A DNA stretch of 64,000 bases. Origin: Advenella kashmirensis W13003 (GTDB taxonomy: Bacteria > Pseudomonadota > Gammaproteobacteria > Burkholderiales > Burkholderiaceae_B). Made by a program: the position numbers and the translations under genes. The stretch lies in the NCBI RefSeq assembly GCF_000506985.1, contig NZ_KI650979.1, forward strand, positions 372,001 to 436,000, in the 5' to 3' direction. Under the pieces are notes generated by a model. It was given only the letters and a program-made list of their open reading frames with translations, was not told the origin of the DNA and did not search any database. Shown piece by piece: positions 18,680 to 42,785 of the stretch. Position 1 is the stretch's first letter. Each line of letters opens with the position of its first letter.

Positions 18680-18696
18680 CAATTCAGGGTATAGAA

Positions 18697-20559: not shown

Positions 20560-20670
20560 ATCACCACGTTGTAGTAATAACGTAGTTATCCGTTTAATTT
20601 CCAGATATTTCCAAAGCGCAAAATGCCTCCCAAAGGCCAGCGCATGCAAATCTTTTCTCAGGGGTAAGCA

Positions 20671-21600
20671 ATGCAGTACTGGTGGGTAAATCAAAATCAA
20701 ACTTACGAGCACGAGGTCAGTGGTGGCTATCTATGGTCCCCTAAAACCAAAGCAAACGGGGCCCGTAACCATTTCTATGACACCATGACAAGAGTCGCGC
20801 CTGGAGACGTTATATTTTCCTTTTCTGACACGTATATTAAAGCTATTGGTATAGCTAGCGACACATACCAATCAGCCAGCAAGCCAAGTGAGTTTGGCAC
20901 GGCTGGCGCTAATTGGACAAACGAAGGTTGGTATGTACCAGTGAGTTTTAAGGAACTAGACAGTCCAATCCGTCCCAAGGACCATATGGACCGCTTAGCT
21001 CCCCTATTGCCGTCAAAATACTCTCCTCTTCAAGAAAATGGTAATGGTAACCAAGGGGTGTACCTCGCAGGAGTACCACATAATTTCGCACAAGAGTTGG
21101 TAATGCTACTGAATGGTCAAGTCCAATCCATTCGTGCGGATACGAGCTATACGTCAGAAGCCGACGACACTATTGCCATTGACGGGCTACTCCATGATGA
21201 AATGCTGCTCACCACGCAAAGAGCACAGTTAATTCAGGCCCGCATTGGCCAAGGCTTGTTCCGCTCACGTGTTGCAGCACTTGAACCCTGCTGTCGTATC
21301 ACCGGAATTATTGATTCCAGATTTCTTATAGCCAGCCATATCAAACCATGGTCAAAAAGCAATAATATCGAAAAGCTCGACGGTCACAACGGGTTGTTAC
21401 TAGCTCCGCACATTGACCGACTATTTGACAAAGGCTACATAACTTTCGAGAACGATGGTCAACTGCGGGTCAGCCGGAACTTACCGGCTGAGATATATCA
21501 AGCGTGGAATTTAACTGGGTTGATTGCCGCGAAACCGTTTGCTCGACAACAACAGAATTACATGGCCTATCACCGGTCTGTGGTATTCCAGGAAGCCTAA
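20671..21600 (+). CDS. EVE-like (PUA-type) domain fused to HNH endonuclease
   Basis: 309 residues. The first ~150 resemble an EVE/PUA-like reader of modified bases (YWWVNQNQTYEHE start, then APGDVIFSFSD and AIGIASD). The last ~100 contain an HNH_2-type nuclease: CCRITG, ASHIKPW with the catalytic histidine, NGLLLAPHIDRLFDKG and an ITF strand. EVE-HNH fusions are known as candidate modification-dependent restriction enzymes. An AGGGGT ribosome-binding site precedes the ATG. It lies 111 bp after the helicase gene on the same strand. It probably cleaves DNA with modified cytosine or similar bases; this is inferred from architecture. Confidence 0.82.
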   Translation: MQYWWVNQNQTYEHEVSGGYLWSPKTKANGARNHFYDTMTRVAPGDVIFSFSDTYIKAIGIASDTYQSASKPSEFGTAGANWTNEGWYVPVSFKELDSPIRPKDHMDRLAPLLPSKYSPLQENGNGNQGVYLAGVPHNFAQELVMLLNGQVQSIRADTSYTSEADDTIAIDGLLHDEMLLTTQRAQLIQARIGQGLFRSRVAALEPCCRITGIIDSRFLIASHIKPWSKSNNIEKLDGHNGLLLAPHIDRLFDKGYITFENDGQLRVSRNLPAEIYQAWNLTGLIAAKPFARQQQNYMAYHRSVVFQEA

Positions 21601-22453: not shown

Positions 22454-24643
22454 CTACGCATCCTGTAATTGCGGTTCGCTGGTTGCAAGATTTTGCACAG
22501 ACTGCTCATGAGCAATAAGTTTACGCTCCAGGTTGCCGATCGCCCGCAATGAGCGTGCCATATCGACAACTTCATCGTATACCGCAATACCGGATTGGCG
22601 GGCAAGTTCGATATAATCGCGCCGCATGCAATCGAGTGCCTCGGATCGATCGCTGCGCAAGGCCAAAACGAAATGAACCTGCGCACCCCGTTCCTTGCGA
22701 GTCTGTGTAATAACATCGATCAAATTCTGCAACGGGTTGCTTGTGCCGCGCCCGACAAAAGCGGCCAGATTCAAATGCATGGCAATGGCATCGGGACTGG
22801 CCTTCTCATATACGATATCCAGGATTTCTTTTGCAATAAATCCCTCCTTCTCCTGCAAACTCCGTACAGGCGTATCGATAGGGTTGGTCACACTCGTGCC
22901 TGGTGGAAAGCCAAGGGCCGTCAAGGCATTAACGACGTCTGGAGCAAACGGCGATACATCAAGGCCCGAGCGCGCAAAACTGTCAGCCCCCAAGACGCTG
23001 GAACCGCCCCCGTTGCCAAACAGCACCACGTTATTTGTCGGGGAGGTCGTTCTAAGCTCCAGGAACTGCAGCGCCAGCAACACATTGATAAATTCATCAA
23101 TCGTGTCGACAATCTCGACCAGCGTCTGCCTGGCCATGGCTTCCCATGCTTCCTGCCCGGACGCAAGTGCACCCGTATGCGATTGGGCGGCAAGCTGGCC
23201 CTGACTCGTAGCGCCCCCCCGGAGAATAACTACCGGCTTGGGATGAGAAGTGCTGCGCAACGCATCGAAAAACTCCCTGCCATTCTTGATGTCTTCTATA
23301 TACAGTCCAATTGCCTTGGTGGCCGGGTCGGCAAGGTAATACCGCAATAGCTCGACCGGCTTGACATCAAGACTGTTGCCTATCGTAGCCAAACCGCTGA
23401 ATCGCAGGCCCCGCCATTGTCCGCGCTTGATGATGTCGGTGGAAAGCCCTCCAGACTGTGAAACAACGCCGATGTTGCCAGGTTCAGCCGGCGCATCCTT
23501 GGGGAACGTCAATCCGCCGCGTGGTGAATAGGTACCCAGGCAATTGGGCCCCAGCAACCTGACCTTTGCCCTTCGCGCTGACTCCAGCAACGCATCTTGC
23601 TTGGCTTTGCCTTCCGTGCTCTCTTCAAATCCGGCGCTGATAATTTGAATGAAACGACACTTGCCTGGCGGAACGTCGATAGATGCGGCAATGCGTTCAG
23701 CTGCGATTGCGACATACGTGTAGTCAACATTCCGGGGAGTCTGCGCAAGACTGGGATAAGCCTTGAGCCCCTCTACCTCATCGGCCTTGGGATGTATCGG
23801 GTAAATCTCTCCTGAGAAACCGAATTCCTGCAAGCGCCGAATAAATGTATTGGCGATAGTGACATCTTTCGTTGAAGCGCCAAGCACAGCCACGGTCCCG
23901 GGTTCAAATAATGGCCGGAAATGCTGCAGTACTGATTCACCGGTCAAGTTTGCCGAAGCAGGCCGTGCTGCCTGAGTGTTTGCTTTCCCGATAAACCGGG
24001 CATCCACCGCGACCAAACGATCACCCGTGTGGATGAGCGGGTTAATATCGATTTCTTCGATGGTATCCTGGTGTGCCAGAAACAAACCGTCGGCCCCGCC
24101 GATTTTCATGAGGGCCTGCACGAGTATTTCCCTGTCATAAGCGGCAGCGCCACGAAAACCATCAAACAATTTTGCTGCTGCGAGCTCGTCGATCATACTA
24201 CGGGCATCGGCTTCGGATATTGGACACAGCCGAAACGTCACATCCTTTAAAAGCTCGATATAAATACCACCCAGGCCGAGCATGATCACGGGACCGAACA
24301 TTGGATCATTGTATCCTCCGATGGCAACTTCAAGTCCCGAGGGTATCATTTCTTCGACCAGCCAGCCTTCAACCCGCACTCCGGCAATAGCCGGCAGAGA
24401 ACGCATTCTGTCTATCGCTTCGGCCACTTCGCGCTCGTTGTTCAGGCCCACTGCGACACCGCCGGACTCTGATTTATGCAAAATATCCCGGGAAACGACT
24501 TTCACGACATAGGGAGCAACCAAGGTGGTCGCCCGATCTTGCGCTTCGTGCGCACTCTTGGCAACAAAGGATTGCGGCGTGTCGATGCCAAACGACGCAA
24601 GAAGTTCTTTTCCTGCCTTTTCATTCAAATTTATCGTGCTCAT
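22454..24643 (-). CDS. ADP-forming acetate/acyl-CoA ligase family protein
   Basis: 729 residues with the parts of ADP-forming acyl-CoA synthetases in beta-then-alpha order. An ATP-grasp domain comes first (about 1-220: PYVVKVVSRDILHKSE, GGVAVGL, MLGLGGIYIELLKD, IDINPLI), then a CoA-binding Rossmann domain (about 240-340: GTVAVLGASTKD) and a succinyl-CoA-ligase-like domain (GNIGVVSQSGGLS, and SHTGALASGQ with the phospho-accepting histidine). I start at 24643, where AGGAG precedes the ATG; the longer frame adds 37 atypical residues. It should activate an organic acid to its CoA ester. Third gene after the enolase-superfamily and carboxylase genes on this strand. Confidence 0.87.
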   Translation of the reverse strand: MSTINLNEKAGKELLASFGIDTPQSFVAKSAHEAQDRATTLVAPYVVKVVSRDILHKSESGGVAVGLNNEREVAEAIDRMRSLPAIAGVRVEGWLVEEMIPSGLEVAIGGYNDPMFGPVIMLGLGGIYIELLKDVTFRLCPISEADARSMIDELAAAKLFDGFRGAAAYDREILVQALMKIGGADGLFLAHQDTIEEIDINPLIHTGDRLVAVDARFIGKANTQAARPASANLTGESVLQHFRPLFEPGTVAVLGASTKDVTIANTFIRRLQEFGFSGEIYPIHPKADEVEGLKAYPSLAQTPRNVDYTYVAIAAERIAASIDVPPGKCRFIQIISAGFEESTEGKAKQDALLESARRAKVRLLGPNCLGTYSPRGGLTFPKDAPAEPGNIGVVSQSGGLSTDIIKRGQWRGLRFSGLATIGNSLDVKPVELLRYYLADPATKAIGLYIEDIKNGREFFDALRSTSHPKPVVILRGGATSQGQLAAQSHTGALASGQEAWEAMARQTLVEIVDTIDEFINVLLALQFLELRTTSPTNNVVLFGNGGGSSVLGADSFARSGLDVSPFAPDVVNALTALGFPPGTSVTNPIDTPVRSLQEKEGFIAKEILDIVYEKASPDAIAMHLNLAAFVGRGTSNPLQNLIDVITQTRKERGAQVHFVLALRSDRSEALDCMRRDYIELARQSGIAVYDEVVDMARSLRAIGNLERKLIAHEQSVQNLATSEPQLQDA

Positions 24644-24680
24644 GTGCGCCTGCTCCTGGAAAGATGGATTCTGATCGTAA

Positions 24681-26213
24681 TTAATGACTGGTAGGCCATG
24701 CGCGCATGTGTCTTTCACCCAAACCGCCCGTGAGCCTGCGCTGCTGGATATCAAGCATGCGAATCATGAATGCACGTGTTTCCTGCGGCTTGATCACATC
24801 ATGGGCCGAGAAAATCCGGGCCATGTCCCACACCTCCAAATCCTTGCGGATATTGGCCAGGGCATCGTCAAACCCCTCGTCCTGCGCGGTCTTGCCGTGT
24901 ACGATGGTGGTCGCAAAGACCGGATCCATGAAACTGACTTCAGCCATCGGCCAGGCAACCATGGTGTCATTGTGTGCGCCGCCGCCCATCGCGACATAAG
25001 CGCGGCCGTATGCCTTGCGGCAAAGCACGGTTATTTGGGGAACGGTCGTCAGGCAGGTCGCGTTCATGAAATTCATAATTTGGCCCGGTGCGCCTTTGCG
25101 TTCGGCTTCGGTTCCCACCACAAATCCCGGCGTATCCACGAAGCGCAGAATCGGTATATTGAAACTGTCGCAAAGCACCGTGAAGTCGATGGCCTTGCGG
25201 CACGCTTCGGCAGACAACGCACCGCCGCCAGTCAAAGGATTGTTCGCAATCACGCCCACGACACGCCCGTCCAATCGCGCCAGACTGGTAACCAATGACT
25301 TGCCAAAGCGGGGCTTGAGCTCAAAAATACTGTCCTTATCCAGGATAATTTCCAGGATTTTTTTCATGTTGTAGACCTGGGTGCGGCTCTCCGGCATGAT
25401 TTCGAGAATGGCATTCTGGTCTGAGGTTGATTCCTCCCCCGCCTTGGTACGAGGTGGCAGTTCCTTCGCATGCGAAGGCATGTATGACAGGAATTTTCTG
25501 ACTGCAAGCATTGCTTCTTCATCGGTATCCACGAAGTGATCGATCAAGCCGGTTTGTTCTGCATGCAAACGCCACCCGCCAAGCTCTTCCAAGTCAACCT
25601 TTTCACCGATTGCCATCGACACAAGCCTGGGACTTGAAACGGACATAATGGATCCCTTTTTCATCACGGCAAAATCAGAGCAACAACACAGCCATGCGGA
25701 AGAGCCGAAAGAAGTATTCAATGCCGCCGCTGCCCACGGCACATCCCGTATACGCCGAAACTGGCTTGTATCGTTGCCAAGCATCTGACCCATCCCCTTG
25801 GATCCCATCGCATCCGGCAAGCGGGCGCCGGTCGACTCTCCGATATGCACAAAAGGCATGCCACGCTCATTACATGTTTTTCGGATGTAACCCATTTTTT
25901 TGGAGTTTGTACCGCTGGTCGACGCGCCTTTTGTGGTGAAATCATTCACAACGACCCCGACGTCACGACCATCTATCAAGCCAAACCCGACGATTTTGCC
26001 ATCTCTGGGTGTTACATCCTTATCCTGTTCGATGACTGAGCTGCCTAAGAGCCCGATCTCAATAAAACTACCGCTATCAATCAATTTATCCAGCCTCTCT
26101 TGCGCATTCAAGTCTCCCGACTCCTTGCGTTTTTCGAGTTTCTTCTGGCCTCCCATCCGGGATGCGGCTATCCTTTTTTCGTCAAGCTTATTGAGTAATT
26201 CGCCATGCTTCAT
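24681..26213 (-). CDS. acyl-CoA carboxylase carboxyltransferase subunit (propionyl-/methylcrotonyl-CoA carboxylase beta type)
   Basis: 510 residues, the normal size of fused carboxyltransferase beta subunits. Landmarks: MGGQKKLEKRKESGDLNAQERLDKL, the N-terminal crotonase-like core with GESTGARLPD, and the C-terminal core with ITVLCRKAYGRAYVAMGGG. The start at 26213 removes 13 atypical residues of the longer open frame. It transfers carboxylate from biotin to an acyl-CoA. The matching biotin carboxylase and biotin carrier lie at 28301-29906 on the same strand, separated by a CitE-like gene of opposite strand. The acyl-CoA substrate is uncertain. Confidence 0.9.
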   Translation of the reverse strand: MKHGELLNKLDEKRIAASRMGGQKKLEKRKESGDLNAQERLDKLIDSGSFIEIGLLGSSVIEQDKDVTPRDGKIVGFGLIDGRDVGVVVNDFTTKGASTSGTNSKKMGYIRKTCNERGMPFVHIGESTGARLPDAMGSKGMGQMLGNDTSQFRRIRDVPWAAAALNTSFGSSAWLCCCSDFAVMKKGSIMSVSSPRLVSMAIGEKVDLEELGGWRLHAEQTGLIDHFVDTDEEAMLAVRKFLSYMPSHAKELPPRTKAGEESTSDQNAILEIMPESRTQVYNMKKILEIILDKDSIFELKPRFGKSLVTSLARLDGRVVGVIANNPLTGGGALSAEACRKAIDFTVLCDSFNIPILRFVDTPGFVVGTEAERKGAPGQIMNFMNATCLTTVPQITVLCRKAYGRAYVAMGGGAHNDTMVAWPMAEVSFMDPVFATTIVHGKTAQDEGFDDALANIRKDLEVWDMARIFSAHDVIKPQETRAFMIRMLDIQQRRLTGGLGERHMRAWPTSH

Positions 26214-26226
26214 GATTCTTTTTCCC

Positions 26227-27303
26227 TTAGTATTCAATGTCGTATTTATCAATCGTCAACCTATCGACCGCTTCTTTGTCCAATTGCGGAAAATATCCGG
26301 CTTTCAGATGAATTTTTCCTTTCTGGCAAGAAAGAGAATTCAGAAACAGGCGATCGACATGCTTGAGAAACCCGTTGAATTCTCCCTTCGTACGGATCAG
26401 GCGCGCAGCAACTGCCGCTTCCATCCAATTGTTGATTTCGCTACCTAAACCGTCGCCAAGCACGGCAAGCATGCCATGGTCATGGACGCTTTGTATTCCG
26501 GCCGCCAACGCGTCAAGGCTGCCAAAACGCTTTAACTTGAGTTTGCAGTAACCAACGTTAGGGATGCCGGCTGCGCGTTCGATATCCGCCAAACTGCAAA
26601 TGGGCTCATCCAGCATCAAGGGGATAGGGCTCTCGCGGGCGACTGCCGCGTTGTCATTCCATGCGTCGGAGTCGCACGGCTGCTCGAATAAATCCGCACC
26701 TGCATATTCAATACCGTGTGAGAATCGGATCGCATCCTCTTTGCAATAAGCACGATTGGCATCCAGTCTGATTGTGGCCCGGTCGGCAAGCAAGCGCAGT
26801 ATGGTGTTCGTCCTGGCAATATCGGCATCGACATCCTTTCCAACTTTTACCTTGAATGTCGTGAAGCCCTCTTCCAGAAGCAGATGCAGCTCCTTTTCAA
26901 TACCTGGCTCATCCGTGGCATTGATAGGGACAATCAACTCCTGGTGGATATCTTTTTCGATTTGCAGCCATTGACTGCCTTGCAATGCCTCGAGGGCAGT
27001 CATGATCAAAGTCGTTGCGACCTTGCTTTCCTCCAGTCTGGACAGCAGTTTGATCTTGCTCTCGTCTATATCGACGTCCTTAAGCTCCTGCAGACGGTCC
27101 TGGCAATATTTCCATGCCCCTTCTCTCGTTTCCGAACTGGAACCGGGTGAAACATGGGCATCGGAAAATGCGCGTTTTCCAGCAGCATCTTCCAGCTCAA
27201 TAAAGAACGGTTCAAACTCCGTGAAGGTCCGATACGAAAGTTTATATGGCTGGTACAGGGGCAACCGGAGTCTCCTGAGGGTTGCTTTCGCGATGTGTGT
27301 CAC
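26227..27303 (-). CDS. enolase-superfamily enzyme, muconate-lactonizing subgroup
   Basis: 358 residues. Both expected Lys regions are visible: KVKVGKD on strand two and KLKLKRFG on strand six. Metal ligands are Asp in IRLDANRAY, Glu in LFEQPCD and Asp in LMLDEPIC. This pattern belongs to the MLE subgroup (cycloisomerases, o-succinylbenzoate synthases, dipeptide epimerases and N-acyl-amino-acid racemases). It starts with GTG and AAGGA seven bases upstream. It leads the minus-strand unit with the carboxylase and CoA ligase; the stop lies 13 bp before the carboxylase start. The reaction is unknown. Confidence 0.86.
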   Translation of the reverse strand: MTHIAKATLRRLRLPLYQPYKLSYRTFTEFEPFFIELEDAAGKRAFSDAHVSPGSSSETREGAWKYCQDRLQELKDVDIDESKIKLLSRLEESKVATTLIMTALEALQGSQWLQIEKDIHQELIVPINATDEPGIEKELHLLLEEGFTTFKVKVGKDVDADIARTNTILRLLADRATIRLDANRAYCKEDAIRFSHGIEYAGADLFEQPCDSDAWNDNAAVARESPIPLMLDEPICSLADIERAAGIPNVGYCKLKLKRFGSLDALAAGIQSVHDHGMLAVLGDGLGSEINNWMEAAVAARLIRTKGEFNGFLKHVDRLFLNSLSCQKGKIHLKAGYFPQLDKEAVDRLTIDKYDIEY

Positions 27304-27315
27304 GCATTATCCTTA

Positions 27316-27335
27316 GTGGTTGTTTTTGTCACCAC
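27316..27335. promoter_or_regulatory. shared regulon operator, site 1
   Basis: GTGGTTG-TTTTTG-TCACCAC, within a longer perfect 8-bp inverted repeat TTAGTGGT/ACCACTAA (27313-27338). It lies between the divergent enolase-superfamily and CitE-like genes, only 13 bases from the GTG start of the former. The left arm is identical to sites at 29986 and 32012, and the 6-base spacing is the same. Confidence 0.6.
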
Positions 27336-27390
27336 TAAAGTTTAGACTATGACCATGTTAAATTCAAGCATTAGTAATATGGAGATTGAA

Positions 27391-28251
27391 ATGAATCAGA
27401 GATTACGCAGCGTGCTTTACGTTCCGGCCCTCAATGAGAAAGCCATGCGCAAGTCGGCTACGCTGGACGTAGACGCAGTAATTTTCGACCTGGAAGACAG
27501 TGTCTTTCCCGAGCAAAAAGCGCAGGCACGATTGCGCCTGGCCGAGTTCCTGGCAAAAGAGCGAGAGCAGTTTCATTCAAAATATCTCGCTATACGTATT
27601 AACGCCCAGGATACGGATTTTTGGAAAGATGATCTTTCCACGGTCAATCAGATGAAGCCCGATGCCGTCGTATTGCCCAAAGTAGTAAGCCCGAAGGTTA
27701 TTTTCGACACCACAGCAGCGCTTCGCACGAGCAATGGTATCCTGCCAAAAATATGGTGCATGGTTGAAAACCCGCTGGGCATTCTCCGACTGGAAGATAC
27801 TGTAGAAAATGGAATAAAGGCAGGTCTGGAATGCCTGATTCTGGGCACAAACGATCTGGTTAAAGACAGCGATCTGGATCCGGGCAAGGATCGCTGCAAC
27901 CTGTTGCCGTGGTTCAGCCACGTCATGCTGGTCGCAAAATCTTTTGGCGTCGCCGTAATCGATGGCGTCCTGAACGACATCAACAATACAGAGACACTCA
28001 GGGCCGAATCAGAGATGGCAAAAGCATTGGGGATGAGCGGAAAAACCATTATTCATCCATCACAGGTCGATGTGGTCAATCAATGCTTCGACCCCAGCCC
28101 CGAGCAAGTTTCATGGTGGAGAAAGATTGTGGAAGCCTACAATCGGCCTGAACACGCCAGCTCAGGTGTCATTAATCTTGAGGGGACCATGGTAGAACGA
28201 TTGCACCTGGAGATCGCACAGCGTCGCCTGCAGGAATACGACCGGACTTAG
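27391..28251 (+). CDS. CitE-like CoA-ester lyase (HpcH/HpaI aldolase superfamily)
   Basis: 286 residues of a TIM-barrel lyase: RSVLYVPALNEKAMRKS at the start, then VIFDLEDSVFPEQK (metal and CoA region), LAIRINAQDT, VVLPKVVSP, MVENPLGIL and the C-terminal KTIIHPSQVDVVNQCF. Relatives cleave beta-hydroxyacyl-CoA compounds such as malyl-CoA, citramalyl-CoA or methylmalyl-CoA into acetyl-CoA or propionyl-CoA plus an oxo acid. I start at 27391 because GGAG lies six bases upstream. It is alone on its strand and divergent from the enolase-superfamily gene across operator site 1. It fits the last step of the putative pathway. Confidence 0.88.
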   Translation: MNQRLRSVLYVPALNEKAMRKSATLDVDAVIFDLEDSVFPEQKAQARLRLAEFLAKEREQFHSKYLAIRINAQDTDFWKDDLSTVNQMKPDAVVLPKVVSPKVIFDTTAALRTSNGILPKIWCMVENPLGILRLEDTVENGIKAGLECLILGTNDLVKDSDLDPGKDRCNLLPWFSHVMLVAKSFGVAVIDGVLNDINNTETLRAESEMAKALGMSGKTIIHPSQVDVVNQCFDPSPEQVSWWRKIVEAYNRPEHASSGVINLEGTMVERLHLEIAQRRLQEYDRT

Positions 28252-28300
28252 CAGCAGGACGGGCAACGAACGAAGTACGTGTCGCCCGCCCTGTCCCTTG

Positions 28301-29674
28301 TCATGCGGCTTTAGCGGGCGCCGCCAACTCGTTGATATGGTCGCCGACGAACCGGGTGCTGATTTCCTGCATGTTAAACGCAGGGTGTCTCAGGCATGCG
28401 ATCAGGAACTCCTTATTCGTACGAAGTCCCTGTATGCTGGTATTATTCAGCGCGGCAATCATAGACTTCACCGCCTCTTGTCTATCGGACCCGTGGGCCA
28501 CAATTTTCGCGATCATTGGATCATAAAATGGCGTAATTACGCCCCCTTGCTCATATCCCGTTTCCACCCGGATGCCCGTTTCCGAGTCAGGCAATTCAAA
28601 TTTCGTGAGGGTGCCGGGTGAGGGCATAAAATTTTTATCGGGATTTTCCGCGTAAAGCCGGCATTCTATCGCGTGTCCGCGTTGCACTACCTCGTGCTGC
28701 TGCAACGCTTTAAGCATTCCACCCGCATACAGCAGTTGCATGGCCACCAGGTCCAGTCCCGTAATCATTTCAGTCACCGGATGCTCCACCTGGATTCGTG
28801 TATTCATTTCCAGGAAATAGAAGTCCCGGGTGTCCACATCAAAGATAAATTCGACGGTGCCGGCTCCCTGGTACTGTACCGACTCTGCAAGGGCTACGGC
28901 TGCACTCTGCATGCGCGACCGGACGTCGGATGGGATATCGGGCGCAGGCGCCTCTTCGATAATTTTCTGAAAACGTCTCTGCAAGGAACAATCACGATCG
29001 AAAATATGAATTGCCTTTTCGCCAAAGCCGAATACCTGGATCTCTACATGCCGGGCCTTGGCAACATATTTTTCAAGAAAAATATCACCATTGCCGAACG
29101 CGGACTCAGCTTGCGACTGAGTTGCCCCAATGGCGGCCTCAAGGTGCGCAGACTCGGTCACTTGCCGCATGCCGATGCCTCCACCGCCCGCCGCAGCCTT
29201 TACCAGCAATGGATAACCAATGCGGGACGCCTCCCGCGTAACTGAAGCCATGTCGCTCGAGTCCAGTCGGCCACTTCCTGGAACAACAGGGACCCCGGCG
29301 CTGACAGCCAGCTCGCGCGCGTTCTGTTTATGTCCCATATCGCGAATTGATTGTGGCTCGGGTCCGACCCATGTCATTCCCGCGTCGATTACGGCCTGGG
29401 CAAATGATGCATTTTCAGACAAAAACCCATAACCGGGATGAATGCCGCACGCGCCCTTCTGTCGGGCTGCGGCCAATATTTTTGCCACTTGCAGGTAGCT
29501 TTCAGCGCTGCGGGCCGGACCGATATGAACACTTTCATCTGCCATGCGCACATGCGGTGAGTCTGCATCTGCATCAGAATAAACTGCTACAGACCCGATA
29601 CCCAGCTTACGGCAAGCTCTAATGACACGACAAGCGATTTCCCCGCGATTTGCAATCAATACCTTCTTCAACAT
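28301..29674 (-). CDS. biotin carboxylase subunit (AccC-like) of an acyl-CoA carboxylase
   Basis: 457 residues, the usual length of a stand-alone biotin carboxylase. Visible: KKVLIANRGEIACRVIRAC at the start, YPLLVKAAAGGGGIGMR (ATP-binding lid), KARHVEIQVFG, DRDCSLQRRFQKIIEE and the FLEMNTRIQVEHPVTE active-site stretch. It carboxylates biotin using ATP and bicarbonate. The start at 29674 follows AAGGAG. The carrier protein is encoded ten bases upstream, so the two form one unit. They probably assemble with the carboxyltransferase at 24681. Confidence 0.92.
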   Translation of the reverse strand: MLKKVLIANRGEIACRVIRACRKLGIGSVAVYSDADADSPHVRMADESVHIGPARSAESYLQVAKILAAARQKGACGIHPGYGFLSENASFAQAVIDAGMTWVGPEPQSIRDMGHKQNARELAVSAGVPVVPGSGRLDSSDMASVTREASRIGYPLLVKAAAGGGGIGMRQVTESAHLEAAIGATQSQAESAFGNGDIFLEKYVAKARHVEIQVFGFGEKAIHIFDRDCSLQRRFQKIIEEAPAPDIPSDVRSRMQSAAVALAESVQYQGAGTVEFIFDVDTRDFYFLEMNTRIQVEHPVTEMITGLDLVAMQLLYAGGMLKALQQHEVVQRGHAIECRLYAENPDKNFMPSPGTLTKFELPDSETGIRVETGYEQGGVITPFYDPMIAKIVAHGSDRQEAVKSMIAALNNTSIQGLRTNKEFLIACLRHPAFNMQEISTRFVGDHINELAAPAKAA

Positions 29675-29684
29675 TCGCGACTCC

Positions 29685-29906
29685 TTAATCTTCAATCCGG
29701 GCAACAACGCTACCTTCGGTAACGGTATCTCCTTCCTTTACCAATATTTCCTGGACAACACCGCTTTCTACGGCCACCACAGGTATTTCCATTTTCATGG
29801 ATTCAAGAATCATCAACGGCTCGTCTTCTGTCACTTTTGAGCCGACCTGATGAAGAATTTTCCAGACATTGCCGGTAATTTCCGTTTTGATATCGATAAT
29901 AGCCAT
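29685..29906 (-). CDS. biotin carrier protein (biotin/lipoyl attachment domain)
   Basis: A 73-residue minimal biotinyl domain with the attachment motif ESMKMEIPV (lysine at about residue 38) and the flanking glycines (ITGNVW, SGVVQEI) of the flattened beta-barrel. Stand-alone carriers of this length serve multi-subunit acyl-CoA carboxylases. It is directly upstream of the biotin carboxylase gene and divergent from the hydratase gene across operator site 2. Confidence 0.92.
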   Translation of the reverse strand: MAIIDIKTEITGNVWKILHQVGSKVTEDEPLMILESMKMEIPVVAVESGVVQEILVKEGDTVTEGSVVARIED

Positions 29907-29985
29907 TGTCTCTCTTCCCTGTTAACTGATGAATATTGCATACGCGCCCAAAACGCCTTGACAGCCATAATACATAAATTCTATA

Positions 29986-30005
29986 GTGGTTGCAATAACA
30001 ACAAC
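29986..30005. promoter_or_regulatory. shared regulon operator, site 2
   Basis: GTGGTTG-CAATAA-CAACAAC, a 7-bp inverted repeat with one mismatch and 6-base spacing, between the biotin-carrier gene and the hydratase gene. The 14-mer ATAGTGGTTGCAAT here is identical to that at site 3 (32009-32022), and CAGCCATAA lies just upstream in both. Confidence 0.6.
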
Positions 30006-30030
30006 GTTTAAGTTTGTTTAGGAGGAAAAC

Positions 30031-30870
30031 ATGATTGACGCAAACGAATGGATCGGGCGCCAAGTAAGCGATATCCAGACGATCGAAGCGTGGCCATTGA
30101 ACGGCCTGAAAAGTCTAATCGGACCCGAGCTGCAACGCGATGCAGTCGATGCCCGCGCTGCAGTTCACCCGTGCGCTCATTGGTTGTACTTCGTGCCTGT
30201 GACGGAGCAGTCCGGGATCGACGTGGATGGGCATCCGAAACGCGGCGACTTCATTCCACCACTGGCGCTACCTCGACGAATGTGGGCAAAAAGCGCCATC
30301 ACATTCGCTGGTGACATCATGCTTGGCGATCGCATCGAAAAAGTGTCAACGATTGCCTCTGTCGATCAAAAAAGCGGGAAATCAGGAGAATTGGTTTTTC
30401 TTGAAATAGACCACAAATACTTGCAAGATAGCCGACTGTTGCGGCACGAAACACAGACAATTGTTTACCGCGACCATCAGCGGTACGAGGACAGCATCTT
30501 CACTCAGCTGGCTGACGAAATGCCGCAGTGGTCCCACCCTACTCGCTTGGGACCCGTGGAGCTTTTTCGATACTCGGCAATTACATTCAACGCACACCGT
30601 ATCCACTACGATGCTGATTACACTCGAAATGTAGAAGGGTACCCATCCATCATCGTTCAAGGACAGTTTATTGCCACATTGGCTTTATCGCGCGCGCTGG
30701 CCGCATTGGGTATGCCTCGCTGCAAAAAATTTACTTTCAAGGCGGTAAAACCGGTCTTCAGTGAGCAGACTGTTTTTATTGAAGGACGAAAAAGTGAGGA
30801 TGGAAAAATATTGGCGTGGGCAAGACAAGAAGATGGCCGTCTCAACATGACGGCGGAAATTGAACTGTAA
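30031..30870 (+). CDS. mesaconyl-C4-CoA-hydratase-like (MaoC/HTD2-type) enzyme
   Basis: 279 residues with a double hot-dog layout as in mesaconyl-C4-CoA hydratases. The N-terminal half has a FAS1_DH63-like stretch including HWLYF, PPLALPRRMWA and LGDRIEKVSTI. The C-terminal half has a MaoC-like RYSAITFNAHRIHYD motif with the catalytic Asp/His region, followed by YPSIIVQGQF. These enzymes add water across an enoyl-CoA with a carboxyl group. A strong AGGAGG ribosome-binding site precedes the ATG. It is divergent from the biotin-carrier gene across operator site 2 and likely hydrates the product of the carboxylase. Confidence 0.83.
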   Translation: MIDANEWIGRQVSDIQTIEAWPLNGLKSLIGPELQRDAVDARAAVHPCAHWLYFVPVTEQSGIDVDGHPKRGDFIPPLALPRRMWAKSAITFAGDIMLGDRIEKVSTIASVDQKSGKSGELVFLEIDHKYLQDSRLLRHETQTIVYRDHQRYEDSIFTQLADEMPQWSHPTRLGPVELFRYSAITFNAHRIHYDADYTRNVEGYPSIIVQGQFIATLALSRALAALGMPRCKKFTFKAVKPVFSEQTVFIEGRKSEDGKILAWARQEDGRLNMTAEIEL

Positions 30871-30890
30871 TGACAGCGGCAAACGCGTCG

Positions 30891-31763
30891 TTATTCCTGC
30901 CCCGAGGTATATCCGGTATTTTCACGGAACGACTCCGCCTGATCAGGCGTGTACGCCTTCAGGCGCAGCTTGGCAAGATAACGCCCAAATTCGGCTGTGA
31001 TTTGGTCACCGAATTTCTGGAATATCTCTGCCATGTAGTAATCGTGCCTGATCAACGCGGCCGCCATCGTGACAATGGTCTGACTTCTAGTCCTGGCACC
31101 GGTATACTCCTGGCCGGAGTTGACAGCAATCATCTCGTTGAAATCGACAACGATAGTAAATAAATTGTCCGCTCTTCCCATCCGAGTACCATCATTTTCG
31201 TGGATATAGACCTGACAATTCTTGCTGAACTCGAACTCTGATGTGTCTTTCCCAAACAAAACAATCATTACATGCATGTTTTTCTTTTTAGCGGCCTTTT
31301 TCAAGGCGGTAGCATAGCGTCGAAGCACCACATCGGATGCCTTAATCCATATTGACTGGCGTGCTGACGCCAACAATTTTTCGATTTCGGCATCAATACT
31401 TTCTTGTCCACGCAGAATCCAAACATATTGATTCTCAACACGAGGGGCGATACGTTCAAGGTCCGTAGCAACACGATTACATGTCTTGGTAGTCTGAGCG
31501 GCCAAAGAATCGAGCATATCGCGCGGGTTCGCCGCGATATAGCATGTAGGACTCTCGGTAACGGGAAGAACTGCTCCTTTTTTTGTCAGTACCTCGAGCG
31601 CACTATAGGTATTGGAGCGCGGAACGCCCGACATTTTGGATATTTCATAGGCGGTTTTAGGTACACCGGCTGCCGACAGGGTTTCTAAATAAATCTTTGC
31701 TTCATACTCTGTAAAGCCCAGGGTTTTAAGATTATCAATGGTATTGGTCTCTGGAGTAGGCAT
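30891..31763 (-). CDS. TrmB-family transcriptional regulator
   Basis: 290 residues: a TrmB-type winged helix at about 10-75 (LKTLGFTEYEAKIYLETL, VPKTAYEISKMSGVPRSNTYSALEVLTKKGAV), a short coiled stretch, and a C-terminal sensor of the PLD-like TrmB type (ESIDAEIEKLLASARQSIWI). TrmB proteins are best known from archaea, so one in a proteobacterial catabolic cluster is uncommon. It is convergent with the hydratase gene and divergent from a Bug gene, with operator site 3 in between. It is the obvious candidate to bind the three shared operators. Confidence 0.83.
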   Translation of the reverse strand: MPTPETNTIDNLKTLGFTEYEAKIYLETLSAAGVPKTAYEISKMSGVPRSNTYSALEVLTKKGAVLPVTESPTCYIAANPRDMLDSLAAQTTKTCNRVATDLERIAPRVENQYVWILRGQESIDAEIEKLLASARQSIWIKASDVVLRRYATALKKAAKKKNMHVMIVLFGKDTSEFEFSKNCQVYIHENDGTRMGRADNLFTIVVDFNEMIAVNSGQEYTGARTRSQTIVTMAAALIRHDYYMAEIFQKFGDQITAEFGRYLAKLRLKAYTPDQAESFRENTGYTSGQE

Positions 31764-32142
31764 AAAACGTTGGCGATGAACAGGATAAATGAAAGTGTCG
31801 GCAGGATCTGATCAAGTTCGTGAAAATGAACAGCCTGACATGAAGAATACACATAAGTTGCCTCAATTACAACCACTTTGACTCCGGTATCAAATCGCCG
31901 CCACAAGAGCGGCACACACTATTATTCTGCGCACAACATTCGCCACTGCGCCAGCAGTCGACCACAGAAAATATTTAGAAAAACTAATGTTCCATACAGC
32001 CATAAAAATAGTGGTTGCAATTGCAGCTACCTATGGTTATTCTGTAAATGACTCGCCGACCAACACGGTGCAGTTCAACCATGCATGAAACAAAAAATTA
32101 AACACCTGTACTTAAGTTATAGAAACTGGAGGAGATCAGACT
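31764..32142. other. 379-bp divergent control region of TrmB and Bug genes
   Basis: No gene is supported here. The region holds operator site 3 (32012-32031). A good ribosome-binding site (GGAGGAG) precedes the Bug start; no Shine-Dalgarno sequence is evident before the TrmB start. The rest is AT-rich with no clear hairpin. Confidence 0.5.
32012..32031. promoter_or_regulatory. shared regulon operator, site 3
   Basis: GTGGTTG-CAATTG-CAGCTAC, the third copy of the pattern GTGGTTG-N6-imperfect inverted arm, with TGCAATTGCA as a perfect 10-bp palindrome at its centre. It lies about 110 bases before the Bug start and 250 bases before the TrmB start. Confidence 0.58.
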
Positions 32143-33135
32143 ATGGATGCAAAAAGGAGTATTTCAGAGAAAATAAGAAAAAGTTTTCTGTGCATTACGA
32201 CAGCAGTTATGACGTTACTGAGCAACCCGCTTATGGCCCAGGATTGGCCGACGCAGCCCGTTTCCCTCATCATTCCGTTTTCTCCGGGAGGGTCGACCGA
32301 TATTATTGCCCGCGTTGTTGGCAATAAAATGGCCGAAGTGCTGGGAGTCAGCGTTGTCCCTGAAAACAAGGGTGGGGCCGGAGGCATTATTGCGGCAAAC
32401 TATCTTGCCAATGCAGCGAAAAACGGATATACCATTTCACTCGATCACATTGGCTTCGCATTTAACCAGTCCCTGATTCACGGGAAGCGCATTCCCCAGA
32501 AAGAGATCGTTCCTGTCGCCTTCATCGGTTCCACACCCAATGTGCTTGTTGTTCCCAATAGCTTTCCCGCCAAAACCTTGCCTGAATTCATCGCCTTCGC
32601 CAAAGCGCATCCCAACGAGATTAACTTTGGATCCGGTGGCGTAGGCAGCGCGGGCCATTTACCCATGGAGCTTTTACAGTCGGTGACAAAAACCAAGATG
32701 GTGCACGTCCCTTACAAAGGTTCTGGTCCGGCAATCACGGACCTGACAAGCGGACGAATCCAGGCAATGTTGATGACGATTCCGGCAATTATGGGTGCGA
32801 TAAAGAACAATCAAGTAAGGGCCATCGCCACCACAGGATTGAAACGCCCCAAGGCAATATCTGACATTCCGACATTCAAGGAAGCCGGTATCGATCACTT
32901 CGTTTATCAACCGTGGTACGGGATTTTCGCGCCCAAAGGTACTCCGCAACCCGTTCTGGATAAGCTTCATGCGGCAGTCAACCAGTCCATATCCGATCCC
33001 GTCGTCGTTGCTAAACTGCTGGAGCAAGGCTTGGCGACAGAAAAGAAAACTCAGCAGGCATTTGTAGATGAGGTCGGGAGTGATACTAAAGAGTGGGGAG
33101 ATATCATCGGGAAACTTGGACTAAGCGCCAAATAA
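32143..33135 (+). CDS. Bug-family (TctC) periplasmic substrate-binding protein 3
   Basis: 330 residues with a signal peptide (hydrophobic core at about 18-30, cleavage after PLMA), then [34 protein letters not shown] and VHVPYKGSGPAI, the Bug fingerprint. It is preceded by GGAGGAG. It is in the TrmB regulon (operator site 3) and probably captures the acid that is activated and carboxylated by the enzymes of 22454-30870. Confidence 0.92.
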   Translation: MDAKRSISEKIRKSFLCITTAVMTLLSNPLMAQDWPTQPVSLIIPFSPGGSTDIIARVVGNKMAEVLGVSVVPENKGGAGGIIAANYLANAAKNGYTISLDHIGFAFNQSLIHGKRIPQKEIVPVAFIGSTPNVLVVPNSFPAKTLPEFIAFAKAHPNEINFGSGGVGSAGHLPMELLQSVTKTKMVHVPYKGSGPAITDLTSGRIQAMLMTIPAIMGAIKNNQVRAIATTGLKRPKAISDIPTFKEAGIDHFVYQPWYGIFAPKGTPQPVLDKLHAAVNQSISDPVVVAKLLEQGLATEKKTQQAFVDEVGSDTKEWGDIIGKLGLSAK

Positions 33136-33290: not shown

Positions 33291-34190
33291 TTATCCTTGC
33301 TGCATAGAGGCCGCTTCCTCACGTATCCATGCCTGAAACAGCTGCACGCCTTCCGGAACCGGACGATCCGACGCATGGGCCATGAAATAGCCCCCGTCGG
33401 TTCGCACTCGCAAGTCAAAGGGCGCAACCAGTACGCCGGCATTCAAGTCCTGCTCAATGAACGCCGCCAGGCCGATCGTCACGCCCAGTCCATTGGCTGC
33501 CGCCTGATAAGCCAGGGCGGCATTCTCGAACTTCAAGCCCAGATTGCCGTCGATTTGCGCCTGGCCGGCCGCTTGCAGCCAGGCAGGCCAGTCGTCTGGA
33601 CGATTGAGTGAGCAAAGCAAGACGTGATTCGCCAAATCAGCGGGCTGCCGCAAAGGTGGCTGGCCCTGCAACAGACTGGGGGCACACACCGGCACCAATA
33701 TCTCGCCGAATAGTTCCTCTTCGTTCAAGGCCTCCGAAGCGTGCGGCCGGGCTTGAATACTCAGGTCAATATCTTCGCGATTGAAGTCTGCATGCTGATG
33801 CGACGTAGTTATCTGCACGTCCAATTCAGGGTGACGGGCATGAAAATGCGCCAACCGGGGCACCAGCCATTTGATGGCAAACGTGGGCGGCAGTTTGATG
33901 CGTAGCCGCTTCGTGTCGGTACGCCGTTGCAATTGCCTGGAACCGAGTTCGATTTGGGCCAATGCGTCCGCGACGATACGTTGATAAACAATACCGTCTG
34001 CAGTGAGGGAAATGCCATGCCGCTGACGCACGAACAATTGCAAGCCCAGCCAATCTTCCAGGAGGTGGATGTGCCGACTGACCGCACCCTGGCTGATGCA
34101 CAGATTGTTCGCCGCTTGCGTAAGGCTATCGCAGCCTGCCGCAGCGTCAAAAACGCGAAGCGCATTTAAAGGAGGGAGTCTTCGGAGCAT
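33291..34190 (-). CDS. LysR-family regulator (GcvA-like)
   Basis: 299 residues of the GcvA-type subgroup: RRLPPLNALRVFDAAAGC start, HTH with SLTQAANNLCISQGAVSRHI, and TADG. The effector domain follows from about 90. It is divergent from the Bug gene that heads the LeuCDB-like operon, and a perfect 25-bp palindrome lies between them, so it is very probably that operon's regulator. Confidence 0.9.
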   Translation of the reverse strand: MLRRLPPLNALRVFDAAAGCDSLTQAANNLCISQGAVSRHIHLLEDWLGLQLFVRQRHGISLTADGIVYQRIVADALAQIELGSRQLQRRTDTKRLRIKLPPTFAIKWLVPRLAHFHARHPELDVQITTSHQHADFNREDIDLSIQARPHASEALNEEELFGEILVPVCAPSLLQGQPPLRQPADLANHVLLCSLNRPDDWPAWLQAAGQAQIDGNLGLKFENAALAYQAAANGLGVTIGLAAFIEQDLNAGVLVAPFDLRVRTDGGYFMAHASDRPVPEGVQLFQAWIREEAASMQQG

Positions 34191-34242
34191 TGTACGGCGC
34201 TCGGCAATAGTGCAGATGCCGGCCAGTGTAGCACGACAGCCT

Positions 34243-34267
34243 TAGATATCCAATAATTGGATATCTA
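34243..34267. promoter_or_regulatory. perfect 25-bp palindrome, probable LysR operator
   Basis: TAGATATCCAAT-A-ATTGGATATCTA: two 12-base arms without any mismatch around one base. It contains a T-N11-A core, the LysR binding pattern. It lies 53 bases upstream of the LysR start and 136 bases before the Bug start. Confidence 0.68.
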
Positions 34268-34402
34268 CCATGTCTTAATTGTGATTGAGCTCTACCCGCC
34301 GGATAGCCATAATGACGTGCAGGGACCAACCTGATATGACAAACATCATGGGCGCGTCAGGTTGCAGCAGCATTTCAAAAACAAGCCCAGGAGGAGACTA
34401 AC

Positions 34403-35377
34403 ATGAAAAAAATGCATAGCTTACTGGCAGCTGCAATGACCGTGTCATGTATGATCGCGGCCGCGCCTGTCTTCGCGCAAAGCTACCCCGAACGACCCGT
34501 GACACTCATTGTGCCGTGGCCGGCGGGCGGCGGTGTCGACACCATGGGCAGGCTCGCCGCCGAAATTTTGCGCAAGGGACTGGGTCAGTCCGTCGTAGTG
34601 GAAAACAAAGGTGGTGCGGGCGGCAACATCGGCACGGCCCTGGCTGCACACGCACACCCCGACGGCTACACGCTTTTGATGGCATCCACGACGCCCAATG
34701 CGGTTAACGAGCACCTGTACTCGAAACCGGGCTATAACGCGCAAGCCGATTTCGCTCCGATTGCGCTGGTTGGCGCCACACCCAATATTCTGGTTGTACC
34801 CGCGAATTCACCTTTTAAGAGCGTAGACGAACTCATCGCCTTTGCCAAGGCCAATCCGGGCAAGCTGACTTATGGCTCCGGCGGCATCGGATCTACTCAG
34901 CACTTAGCCGGTGTGCGATTCATGCAAGCAGCGAAGATAGATATGCTACACGTACCTTACAAAGGAACCGCCCCTGCCGAGGCGGATTTGATGGCTGGCC
35001 ATGTATCGGTCATGCTTGACACCGCACCCAGTATCCCGCTGATCGCCTCCGGCAGATTGCGCGCCCTGGCGGTCGCCGCACCCCAACGCACACCGGTCCT
35101 CCCCAACGTAGCAACGCTGGACGAACTGGGCGTGCCCGATGTGCACATTACGACCTGGTACGGCGTGATGGCGCCCACCGGAACACCCGCCGAAATCATC
35201 GAGCGTCTCAACAAGGAAATCACGCAAGCGCTAGGCACGCCGGAGTTGCGCAAGAAAATGGCCGAAATGGGTGCCGACACGGTACCAGGCTCCCCCCAGG
35301 ACTTTGGCCATTTCGTGACCAAGGAGAGCGAGCGCTACAAGGAGATCGTCCAGGCATCTGGAGCAAAGCTCGACTGA
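34403..35377 (+). CDS. Bug-family (TctC) periplasmic substrate-binding protein 4
   Basis: 324 residues with a clear signal peptide ([20 protein letters not shown]) followed by Bug motifs: [34 protein letters not shown] and [13 protein letters not shown] strong AGGAGGAG ribosome-binding site lies upstream. The stop TGA touches the ATG of the LeuC-like gene (TGATG), so binding protein and isomerase/dehydrogenase genes are expressed together. The ligand is probably a branched or substituted malate-type dicarboxylate; this is inference from neighbours. Confidence 0.92.
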
Positions 35378-36849
35378 TGCCTGACTCACACCTTTTTACG
35401 CAAGGTTTTTCACCGATGACACCAAGATATGAACCCGCGGTACCGCGAACGCTGTTTGACAAAATATGGGAGCGTCATAGCATTATGACGCGAGAGGATG
35501 GGCAAAGCCTGCTGTTCATTGATCGGCACCTGGTTCAGGACGGTTCAGCCCCGGCCTTCGAAATGCTGCGCCAGCGTGGCTTGCCTGTTCGTCGTCCCGA
35601 CTTGTCGGCCGCGACCGCCGACCATTACGTACCAACGGGGAGCCGTGAACTGAATGACATCGACGATCCCGAGAAGCGTGCGATGGCGCAAGCGCTGCAG
35701 CACGATACGGGTGTCGCCGGCATTCGTTTTTTCGGATTAGACGATCCGCGACAGGGAATTATTCACGTCGTGGCACCCGAACAGGGTCTTTCCCTGCCGG
35801 GCATGCTGATCGTCTGTGGCGACAGCCATACCTCGACTCACGGTGCACTGGGTGCCCTGGCTTTCGGCATTGGCGCTTCCGAGGTGGCACATGTGCTGGC
35901 AACGCAAACCCTGTGGCAGCGTCGCCCCAAAACCTTACGGGTTCGGATCGAAGGACGTCTGGGTGCAGGTGTCGGGCCCAAGGACGTCATCCTGGCTGTG
36001 ATCGCGCGGATCGGTGCGGCTGGCGCAACAGGCCACGTTATCGAATACGCAGGCGAGACCATTCGAGCAATGTCGGTCGAGGCGCGCATGACCATCTGCA
36101 ACATGAGCATCGAGGCCGGTGCACGGGCCGGGATGATTGCGCCGGACGACACGACTTTCGAGTGGCTGGCCGGCCGCCCCTATACACAGGACGAACGTGC
36201 CTGGGATGAGCGCGTGGCACAGTGGCGGCACCTGGCTTCCGATGAGGATGCCCACTTCGACCGGGAAGTGCGTATTGAAGCCGACACCATTGAGCCCATG
36301 GTTACCTGGGGCAATAGTCCGCAGGATGCCGTACCGATCTCCGCATGCGTGCCCGATCCTGCCGATCTGTCACAGGCTGAAGAGCGTGAATCAATGGCAG
36401 CAACGCTGCATTACATGGGCCTGACACCCGGCATGGCGCTTACTGATGTAAAAGTGGATCATGTTTTCATCGGTTCCTGCACCAATGGGCGCATCGAGGA
36501 CTTGCGCAGCGCAGCGCAAGTCATACGTGGTCGCCACGTTGCACGCGGCGTGCAGGCCTGGGTCGTACCCGGCTCTGGTCAAGTGCGTCGGCAGGCCGAA
36601 CAGGAAGGCCTGCACCGCATCTTCATAGATGCTGGCTTCCAGTGGCGCCACGCGGGCTGTTCCATGTGCCTGGCCACCAACGGCGACCTTGTCCCGCCAG
36701 GCCAACGCTGCGCGTCGACATCGAACCGCAATTTTGTTGGACGGCAAGGACCGGGGTCACGCACACACTTGATGAGTCCGACGATGGCCGCGGCCGCCGC
36801 TATAGCGGGCCACCTGTGCGACGTACGCCAATTGCAGCAGGAGTCTTGA
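35377..36849 (+). CDS. 3-isopropylmalate dehydratase large-subunit homologue (LeuC-like aconitase family)
   Basis: 490 residues (about 20 more than usual LeuC). The iron-sulfur ligands are present (SCTNGR and GCSMCLA), as are [12 protein letters not shown] and [15 protein letters not shown]. The segment after the cluster reads CLATNGD where leucine-biosynthetic LeuC normally has CLAMN(P/N)D. ATG at 35416 is a possible later start; 35377 is chosen because it couples to the Bug stop. Together with the LeuD-like subunit it should isomerise a 2-hydroxy to a 3-hydroxy dicarboxylate. Linkage to a Bug protein and LysR gene, without leuA, points to catabolism of a malate analogue more than leucine synthesis. 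Confidence 0.86.
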
Positions 36850-36851
36850 TC

Positions 36852-37442: not shown

Positions 37443-37498
37443 CATGCCAATTTTCCTGCGGAAGACCTTCCGCCCACTTTTCAGCTATGGAGAAAAAA

Positions 37499-39592: not shown

Positions 39593-39603
39593 TTACCTCG
39601 CTC

Positions 39604-40386: not shown

Positions 40387-40427
40387 GAATTCGTTCCTGT
40401 CGATCTGTGTTGTTGTCCATATTCCGC

Positions 40428-41402: not shown

Positions 41403-41444
41403 GATTGTCTCCAGGTATGAATTTATCGTTATGTGCGATTCCAC

Positions 41445-42734: not shown

Positions 42735-42785
42735 TTTCTCTCCTTTGTATGAATCAAGTTTGTCCATCTAGTGATATTTGAGTTC

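Follow-up and report, generated by a model that had tools for sequence, protein, structure and literature searches.

In Advenella kashmirensis W13003, a 64-kb stretch of DNA (the window, meaning the whole stretch that was analyzed) carries at positions 22454 to 33135 a gene cluster for an ADP-forming acyl-coenzyme A (acyl-CoA) ligase, a three-part biotin-dependent carboxylase, an enolase-superfamily enzyme, a hydratase, a CitE-type lyase, a TrmB-type regulator, and a Bug solute-binding protein. With belief evenly divided for and against, we read this cluster as an inducible, mobile regulon that would break down one small organic acid via a carboxylated CoA ester. The gene set, the motif residues that its enzymes keep, the operator-like site that its units share, and its recurrence as a unit in other genomes are all observed. 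The cluster is new as a combination, is made of known enzyme families, and is predicted to be co-regulated. All of the cluster genes named in the initial annotation sit in open reading frames at the place it gave. The parts of the cluster are as follows:

22454 to 24754, minus strand: ADP-forming acyl-CoA ligase in one chain (likely start 24643, 729 aa; Pfam ATP-grasp_5, Succ_CoA_lig, and CoA_binding_2)
24681 to 26252, minus strand: carboxyltransferase subunit, CT (likely start 26213, 510 aa; Pfam Carboxyl_trans)
26227 to 27303, minus strand: enolase-superfamily enzyme of the muconate lactonizing enzyme/o-succinylbenzoate synthase (MLE/OSBS) type, GTG start (Pfam MR_MLE_C)
27314 to 27337, between the MLE and CitE genes: predicted operator, TAGTGGTTG-tttttg-TCACCACTA
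27349 to 28251, plus strand: CitE-type lyase (likely start 27391; Pfam HpcH_HpaI)
28301 to 29707, minus strand: biotin carboxylase, BC (likely start 29674, 457 aa; Pfam Biotin_carb_N, CPSase_L_D2, and Biotin_carb_C)
29685 to 29906, minus strand: biotin carboxyl carrier protein, BCCP (73 aa, ESMKM)
29958 to 29987, plus strand: candidate sigma-70 promoter of the hydratase gene, TTGACA-18-TATAGT (11 of 12)
29984 to 30007, between the BCCP and MaoC genes: predicted operator, TAGTGGTTG-caataa-CAACAACGT
30031 to 30870, plus strand: MaoC/FAS1_DH hydratase of the itaconyl-CoA/mesaconyl-C4-CoA hydratase type
30891 to 31763, minus strand: TrmB-family transcriptional regulator (Pfam TrmB and Regulator_TrmB)
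32009 to 32032, upstream of the Bug gene: predicted operator, TAGTGGTTG-caattg-CAGCTACCT
32143 to 33135, plus strand: TctC/Bug solute-binding protein (Pfam TctC)

Profile scans with Pfam and NCBIfam covered ten window proteins, and the sequence of the 73-aa carrier was taken from its open reading frame without a profile test; the gene families claimed in the initial annotation (ligase, three-part carboxylase, MLE, hydratase, CitE, and Bug) proved right on this basis. The likely starts of CitE, the ligase, the CT, and the BC were set by frame reading and by where homologue alignments begin. The genes are arranged in alternating units, namely, MLE-CT-ligase (minus), CitE (plus), BCCP-BC (minus), MaoC (plus), TrmB (minus), and Bug (plus). 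They thus do not form a single operon, but a shared predicted operator supports the claim that they make up one regulon.

An inverted-repeat search of the intergenic regions recovered TAGTGGTT-n8-CACCACTA between MLE and CitE, and a near-copy lies at the same place in the clusters of two other Advenella genomes and of Pollutimonas nitritireducens (loci L002 to L004). The operator consensus, TAGTRGTTG-N6-CAACYACTA, was scored over 18 informative positions. The exact half-site TAGTGGTTG occurs three times in the 64 kb (at 27314, 29984, and 32009), each time in a promoter region of the cluster, against 0.33 expected, and none of 100 shuffles reached this count. The full operator with at most three mismatches occurs twice in the window (0.00 expected), and three sites scored at least 14 of 18, compared with a mean of 0.5 and a maximum of 2 in 50 block-shuffled windows, which are a weaker control.

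Each of 12 loci with the enolase-type gene and each of five loci that share only a TrmB-centered core (described below) holds at least one site scoring at least 14. At a threshold of at least 15, there were 31 sites in 15 enolase-cluster stretches (327,528 bases; 29 are distinct, since L004 and L151 overlap) and 4 in the five TrmB core loci. No site reached 15 in 13 loci of distant MLE homologues (one scored 14) or in 18 TrmB-less carboxylase loci (333,375 bases; three scored 14, in L068 and L070). Another 96 control loci (891,144 bases) held 12 sites scoring at least 14, of which L053, L055, and L056, themselves short copies of the TrmB core loci, account for six and other loci for the remaining six; 97,000 bases from elsewhere in the window's own genome held none. 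Across the loci, the presence of the TrmB regulator tracks that of the operator. These results support a single regulon in which the TrmB-type protein would control the cluster genes through the predicted operator. The second hexamer of the candidate hydratase promoter overlaps this operator, as would be expected for a repressor, although promoter-like sites in the region (7, versus 6.1 in shuffles) make a single promoter match weak evidence alone. The regulator has the TrmB DNA-binding and Regulator_TrmB domains in common with archaeal TrmB-family regulators; in contrast to these, it is proteobacterial, and its two best NCBIfam TrmB equivalogs score 46 to 49 bits against cut-offs of 600 to 650.

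The cluster recurs in Alcaligenaceae and outside that family. Searches by tblastn with the window proteins found the cluster in two Advenella genomes (L002 and L003), P. nitritireducens (L004), a Candidimonas metagenome-assembled genome (L005), and, twice, Paralcaligenes ureilyticus (L006 and L007). A family-wide search of 268 genomes gave CTs of at least 78% identity in six genomes besides the window's, five of them those of L002 to L007 and the sixth G629 (L061). Since only two of nine other genomes of the genus carry the cluster and seven do not, its distribution within the genus is patchy. In a sample of 349 genomes of the order, every other MLE among the listed matches had an identity of 41% or less. 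The Bug protein of the window has 65 to 68% relatives inside the Paralcaligenes and Candidimonas clusters.

Of 748 plasmid records with a CT match, only one fell in the 60 to 80% band, a plasmid of the kelp isolate Sulfitobacter sp. LC.270.F.C4 that is typed as conjugative. It carries the whole set (ligase, 55% identity; CT, 74%; MLE, 51%; CitE, 41%; BC, 55%; BCCP, 62%; MaoC, 44%; and TrmB, 48%) together with TctABC, BioY, a YeiH-type putative sulfate exporter, and a MetK gene overlapping the MLE gene. When the Sulfitobacter MLE was compared with 398 genomes of the phylum, the window's genome alone matched. In a family of another class (f250, 334 genomes), which from its likeness to Sulfitobacter is probably Rhodobacterales kin, three genomes have MLEs 55 to 64% identical to that of Sulfitobacter, each with CT and ligase genes adjoining; two more have 33 to 34% homologues without adjoining CT and ligase genes. 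The overlapping MetK gene (L134:12769-13935) is a complete, divergent methionine adenosyltransferase gene. A copy of a host gene was considered and rejected, since the highest identity among the matches listed for the 398 genomes is 57%, and the gene looks like a divergent paralogue.

MLE, CT, ligase, and TrmB occur together in 12 of 12 enolase-type loci (in L146, the ligase is matched over 469 residues only), and BC and BCCP occur in 11, the twelfth, L146, being an 8.5-kb contig. The constant core is the enolase-type enzyme, the ligase, the three-part carboxylase, and the regulator, and because the genes stay together in other genomes, a grouping by chance is ruled out. A looser core of TrmB, CT, ligase, and operator, with no match to MLE, CitE, or MaoC, is found in L077, L079, L080, L095, and L096 (20 kb each); its CTs are 48 to 49% identical to the window's, and four of these loci, all except L079, also gave matches to BC and BCCP. 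The clusters of Sulfitobacter, G1384, and G1336 include BioY genes, which would make sense if biotin is limiting. The initial annotation knew of no described pathway with this exact set, and this still holds: in open-licence literature, which is what the search covered, we found no publication on the combination of ligase, enolase-type enzyme, carboxylase, and TrmB-type regulator.

The BC and CT domains and the biotinyl-lysine motif ESMKM of the BCCP mark the enzyme as a biotin-dependent acyl-CoA carboxylase. Compared with PDB chains, the CT scored best with a propionyl-CoA carboxylase (PCC; 268 bits), although chains so named span 154 to 268 bits and two of them score only 154 to 165. Methylcrotonyl-CoA carboxylases (MCC) scored 131 to 157 bits, geranyl-CoA carboxylase (GCC) 148, and AccD1 182; by these scores, the CT is not of the MCC/GCC type. 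The CTs of the 12 enolase-linked loci form one clade with support of 100/100. The window's genome has three further CT matches, one of them, 28% identical to the cluster CT, inside a leucine-type cluster (typed by neighbors and lengths), as well as eight matches to the model of 3-hydroxy-3-methylglutaryl-CoA (HMG-CoA) lyase (HMGL), seven of them over its cut-off. Methylmalonyl-CoA mutase (PF01642) was absent from seven of seven cluster genomes searched, one of which is only 82% complete; this search was positive in 1 of all 20 genomes searched and in 8 of 14 control genomes. The product is thus hardly methylmalonyl-CoA en route to succinyl-CoA. Taken together, the sequence comparisons make it likeliest that the enzyme carboxylates the alpha carbon of a particular CoA ester that the linked ligase forms, and an order of activation followed by carboxylation is well supported by inference.

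Two more carboxylase clusters with CoA-transferase-like and Bug-like genes occur in the window's own genome (L107 and L108), one of them adjoining a molybdenum-hydroxylase-like pair; both were typed by eye and by CT match only. In the TrmB-less relatives L065, L135, and L137, a CaiB-type CoA-transferase replaces the ligase and a MaoC protein lies beside the carboxylase, with TauE also present in L065.

The closest solved chain to the ligase is 3-hydroxypropionate--CoA ligase (9y43; E = 9e-95), and the SHTGAL motif is kept, presumably with its usual role. In the enolase-type enzyme, K151, K153, D181, E207, D232, K254, and K256 are invariant across eight aligned sequences, all eight of which show the residue pattern of the MLE subgroup (K-x-K on strand 2, the metal ligands D/E/D, and a lysine on strand 6); we take these residues to have their customary catalytic and metal-binding roles. 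A search of the PDB with its AlphaFold2 model (pLDDT, 87.6) matched muconate lactonizing enzymes, racemases, and dipeptide epimerases at 15 to 22% identity, recovering the superfamily but no nearer subgroup. The enzyme has the fold and the K-x-K, D, E, D, and K residues in common with the MLE/OSBS subgroup but differs from it by this low identity in the fold matches and by its carboxylase linkage. Distant MLE homologues (38 to 40%) in L081, L082, L088, and L090 adjoin TauD-type dioxygenases (assigned solely by similarity in L081) and Bug proteins. A 48% CT is present in L090 as well, and in L061 a TauD gene and the MLE gene are some 10 kb apart.

The hydratase matches itaconyl-CoA hydratase (8khg; E = 5e-47) and keeps the motif FRYSAITFNAHRIHYD, close to that of 8khg. 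The closest solved chain to the CitE-type lyase is the citramalyl-CoA lyase CLYBL (E = 2e-33). The lyase keeps R83, E140, and D169 (numbered from 27349) at motif positions, which by our reading would correspond to R64, E112, and D138 of Rv2498c, the alignments being to CLYBL, malyl-CoA lyases, and RipC-like chains. Itaconyl-CoA hydratase is reported to double as a mesaconyl-C4-CoA hydratase (PMC12290011). Both the hydratase and the lyase family of the itaconate and methylsuccinate degradation systems (RipABC; Ict-Ich-Ccl) are present in the cluster but on separate units, and the cluster differs from these systems in having no CoA-transferase and in adding a carboxylase, a ligase, and an enolase-type enzyme. 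Identity with an itaconate operon was rejected, since the genome has a separate Rip-like operon (typed by similarity only), to whose enzymes the cluster lyase and hydratase are just 28% and 36% identical; against the RipC equivalog, the lyase scores 128 bits for a cut-off of 375.

Intact CitE genes are present in 7 of the 12 enolase-type loci, a 42-residue remnant lies between Bug and MLE in the Candidimonas genome (L005:2695-2820), apparently a natural loss of the lyase, and none was found in the other four, including the short contig L146. MaoC genes are present in 5 of the 12. The scheme of the initial annotation, in which the substrate is activated, carboxylated, hydrated, and cleaved, was strengthened in its first half by the constant ligase-carboxylase core, co-regulation by the predicted operator, and the linked uptake protein, but its hydratase and lyase are optional.

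We propose that Bug (elsewhere a TctABC system) would deliver the acid or its precursor and that the enolase-superfamily enzyme, whose first position we infer, would yield a ligase-ready carboxylate by beta-elimination, ring opening, or epimerization. The ADP-forming ligase would then form the CoA ester, to which BC, carrier, and CT would add CO2, most likely at the carbon beside the thioester as in propionyl-CoA carboxylases, gamma-addition being possible. In the window's lineage, the itaconyl-CoA-type hydratase would add water to the carboxylated ester, and the CitE-type lyase would split the resulting beta-hydroxyacyl-CoA into acetyl-CoA and an oxo acid; for this lineage only, hydration and then cleavage are plausible, and if carboxylation is at the alpha position, both enzymes would act later or on a rearranged product. 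Other lineages would finish with other enzymes in place of these two. The TrmB-type protein would bind TAGTRGTTG-N6-CAACYACTA and probably repress until the inducer is present. The reaction order, the carboxylation site, and the regulator's binding and repression are thus predictions from sequence.

Several observations weigh against this scheme: the hydratase and lyase are missing from several clusters; an alpha-carboxylated product is no obvious substrate for an itaconyl-CoA-type hydratase, so that the carboxylase and the hydratase-lyase pair may not be consecutive; the Sulfitobacter hydratase, being almost as close to the Rip-like hydratase (43%, 213 bits) as to the window's (44%, 229 bits), cannot clearly be called an orthologue; and regulon members differ by lineage (an aconitase module, a ComDE-like decarboxylase, and amidases), so that the regulator might serve more than one acid. 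A rival reading is of two modules under one switch, with the ligase and carboxylase (with MLE) acting on one acid and the hydratase and CitE on a second acid or a side product, e.g., an itaconate- or citramalate-like ester. We regard such an arrangement as unlikely but worth serious consideration. It would fit with the hydratase and lyase each having its own transcription unit, with both being unmatched in L061, G1384, and G1336 (20, 38, and 37 kb), with the lyase remnant of L005, with a CT nearest the alpha-carboxylating side of its family, and with a Sulfitobacter hydratase that resembles the Rip-like one nearly as much as the window's. Nevertheless, the same operator stands at MLE/CitE and at BCCP/MaoC, the genome already owns a Rip-like operon, and both genes accompany the core on the Sulfitobacter plasmid, whose lyase (40% to the window's) is closer to cluster lyases (40 to 43%) than to the other CitEs compared (27 to 30%). 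A copy of the methylcrotonyl-CoA route, in which 3-methylcrotonate (from 3-hydroxyisovalerate via the enolase-type enzyme) would be activated and carboxylated at the gamma position, after which hydration would give (R)-HMG-CoA and CitE would split this into acetyl-CoA and acetoacetate, seems improbable to us. It has a precedent in Mycobacterium tuberculosis, where the CitE-type lyase Rv2498c cleaves (S)-citramalyl-CoA and (R)-HMG-CoA (PMC6689899) and shares an operon with the methylcrotonyl-CoA carboxylase AccA1-AccD1 (PMC4347857); the cluster lyase keeps the R, E, and D residues as well. This precedent takes away the novelty that the initial annotation saw in a CitE-type lyase replacing HMGL. 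The cluster differs from this mycobacterial leucine route in its CT (268 bits with PCC versus 182 with AccD1), its extra ligase and enolase-type enzyme, and its TrmB-type regulator. The analogy to the methylcrotonyl route drawn in that annotation is weakened, since the CT is nearer PCC than MCC or GCC chains, and a duplicate of the leucine pathway is further disfavored by the separate leucine-type CT and the HMGL-model matches elsewhere in the genome. Finally, the resemblance of the CT to its family would suit an ordinary PCC with unrelated neighbors, a reading we dropped as very improbable, given that no mutase was found and that the CT is linked to ligase and MLE in 12 of 12 loci; what the cluster shares with PCC is the CT subunit family, from which its own CT clade, the linked ligase and enolase-type enzyme, and the missing mutase in the searched genomes set it apart.

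A sulfur-containing acid as the substrate, from which sulfite or sulfate would be freed and exported by TauE or the YeiH-type protein, and for which an X-pyruvate decarboxylase together with an aldehyde dehydrogenase would feed the pathway in some relatives, would be compatible with the regulon for one acid proposed above, and we consider it rather doubtful. The evidence includes genes behind operators in other lineages, which differ but in all lineages adjoin the same ligase-carboxylase core. In Pollutimonas, operators precede a Bug-amidase-amidase unit, a Bug-TauE unit, TctC, and a unit of ABC transporter, alpha/beta-hydrolase, amidase, and NMT1-type binding protein, whose solved relatives include taurine- and sulfonate-binding proteins. 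In L095 and L096, operators precede an aldehyde dehydrogenase (second-best model, SafD) and thiamine pyrophosphate (TPP) proteins related to sulfopyruvate decarboxylase (TIGR03845, 106 bits; TIGR03846, 106 and 111 bits) and phosphonopyruvate decarboxylase; in L095, whose N-terminal TPP part was read as sequence only, outside the profile scan, an aminotransferase follows. Two Advenella genomes and a Pollutimonas genome have a TauE-family gene in the cluster, and the putative sulfate exporter of Sulfitobacter (PF03601/TIGR00698) has a 50% relative in G1384. However, the TPP proteins fall short of the curated cut-offs, and for their C-terminal parts, phosphonopyruvate decarboxylase or PRK06163 is an equal or better match; the YeiH-type protein likewise does not reach its cut-off, both TauE and NMT1 are broad families, and TauE is found in the TrmB-less carboxylase locus L065 too. 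Moreover, no known desulfonating enzyme is among the scanned cluster proteins, and the window cluster has no exporter. The genes that operators may control in G1384 and G1336 encode an AbrB-type membrane protein, an aconitase-family protein (of the AcnA type in G1384, where it was scanned), and TctCBA; farther along come PdxA-type and MmgE/PrpD-type genes and, in G1336, one of the tartrate dehydrogenase type. Overall, the TauE and YeiH-type exporters, the ComDE-like decarboxylase, and the amidases weakly hint at a sulfur-containing or amide-derived acid.

Adjoining the cluster in the window is a module of LysR, Bug, LeuC-like, LeuD-like, and isopropylmalate-dehydrogenase-like genes (33291 to 38578) with its own perfect palindrome, TAGATATCCAATAATTGGATATCTA, near 34243. 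Because this region has no TrmB-type operator scoring at least 14 (two sites at 13 lie inside genes), we left the module out of the pathway, with the caveat that in two genomes of another class, operators are present at an aconitase module. In L077, too, the carboxylase core is followed by genes in the order LysR-Bug-LeuC. The window further holds a Rieske oxygenase with a LigXa_C-type domain (41445 to 42767) and reductase-like, SDR-like (short-chain dehydrogenase/reductase), and Bug-like genes (38627 to 42767); two sulfatase-family genes (50625 to 52208 and 55499 to 57172), the neighbors of which are Bug-like and LysR-like by eye; and, beside the cluster, genes for a Schlafen group 3 helicase-domain protein and then an HNH endonuclease (18637 to 21600), possibly a defense pair.

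To our knowledge, the acyl-CoA carboxylases with a known catabolic part are few, namely, those for leucine, terpenes, and propionate. We tentatively suggest, with belief leaning somewhat the other way, that the cluster represents an undescribed biotin-dependent pathway with an enolase-superfamily enzyme of new function, an ADP-forming ligase, a new class of acyl-CoA carboxylase specificity, and proteobacterial TrmB-type control, that conjugative plasmids transfer it between Alcaligenaceae and marine alphaproteobacteria, and that its food may be an organosulfur acid whose carbon becomes usable only after carboxylation. A carboxylase with its own clade, fixed partners, and a readable operator gives a handle on such a pathway: the operator predicts, genome by genome, which genes belong to it, and a reporter on an operator-bearing promoter could reveal the inducer and hence the substrate.

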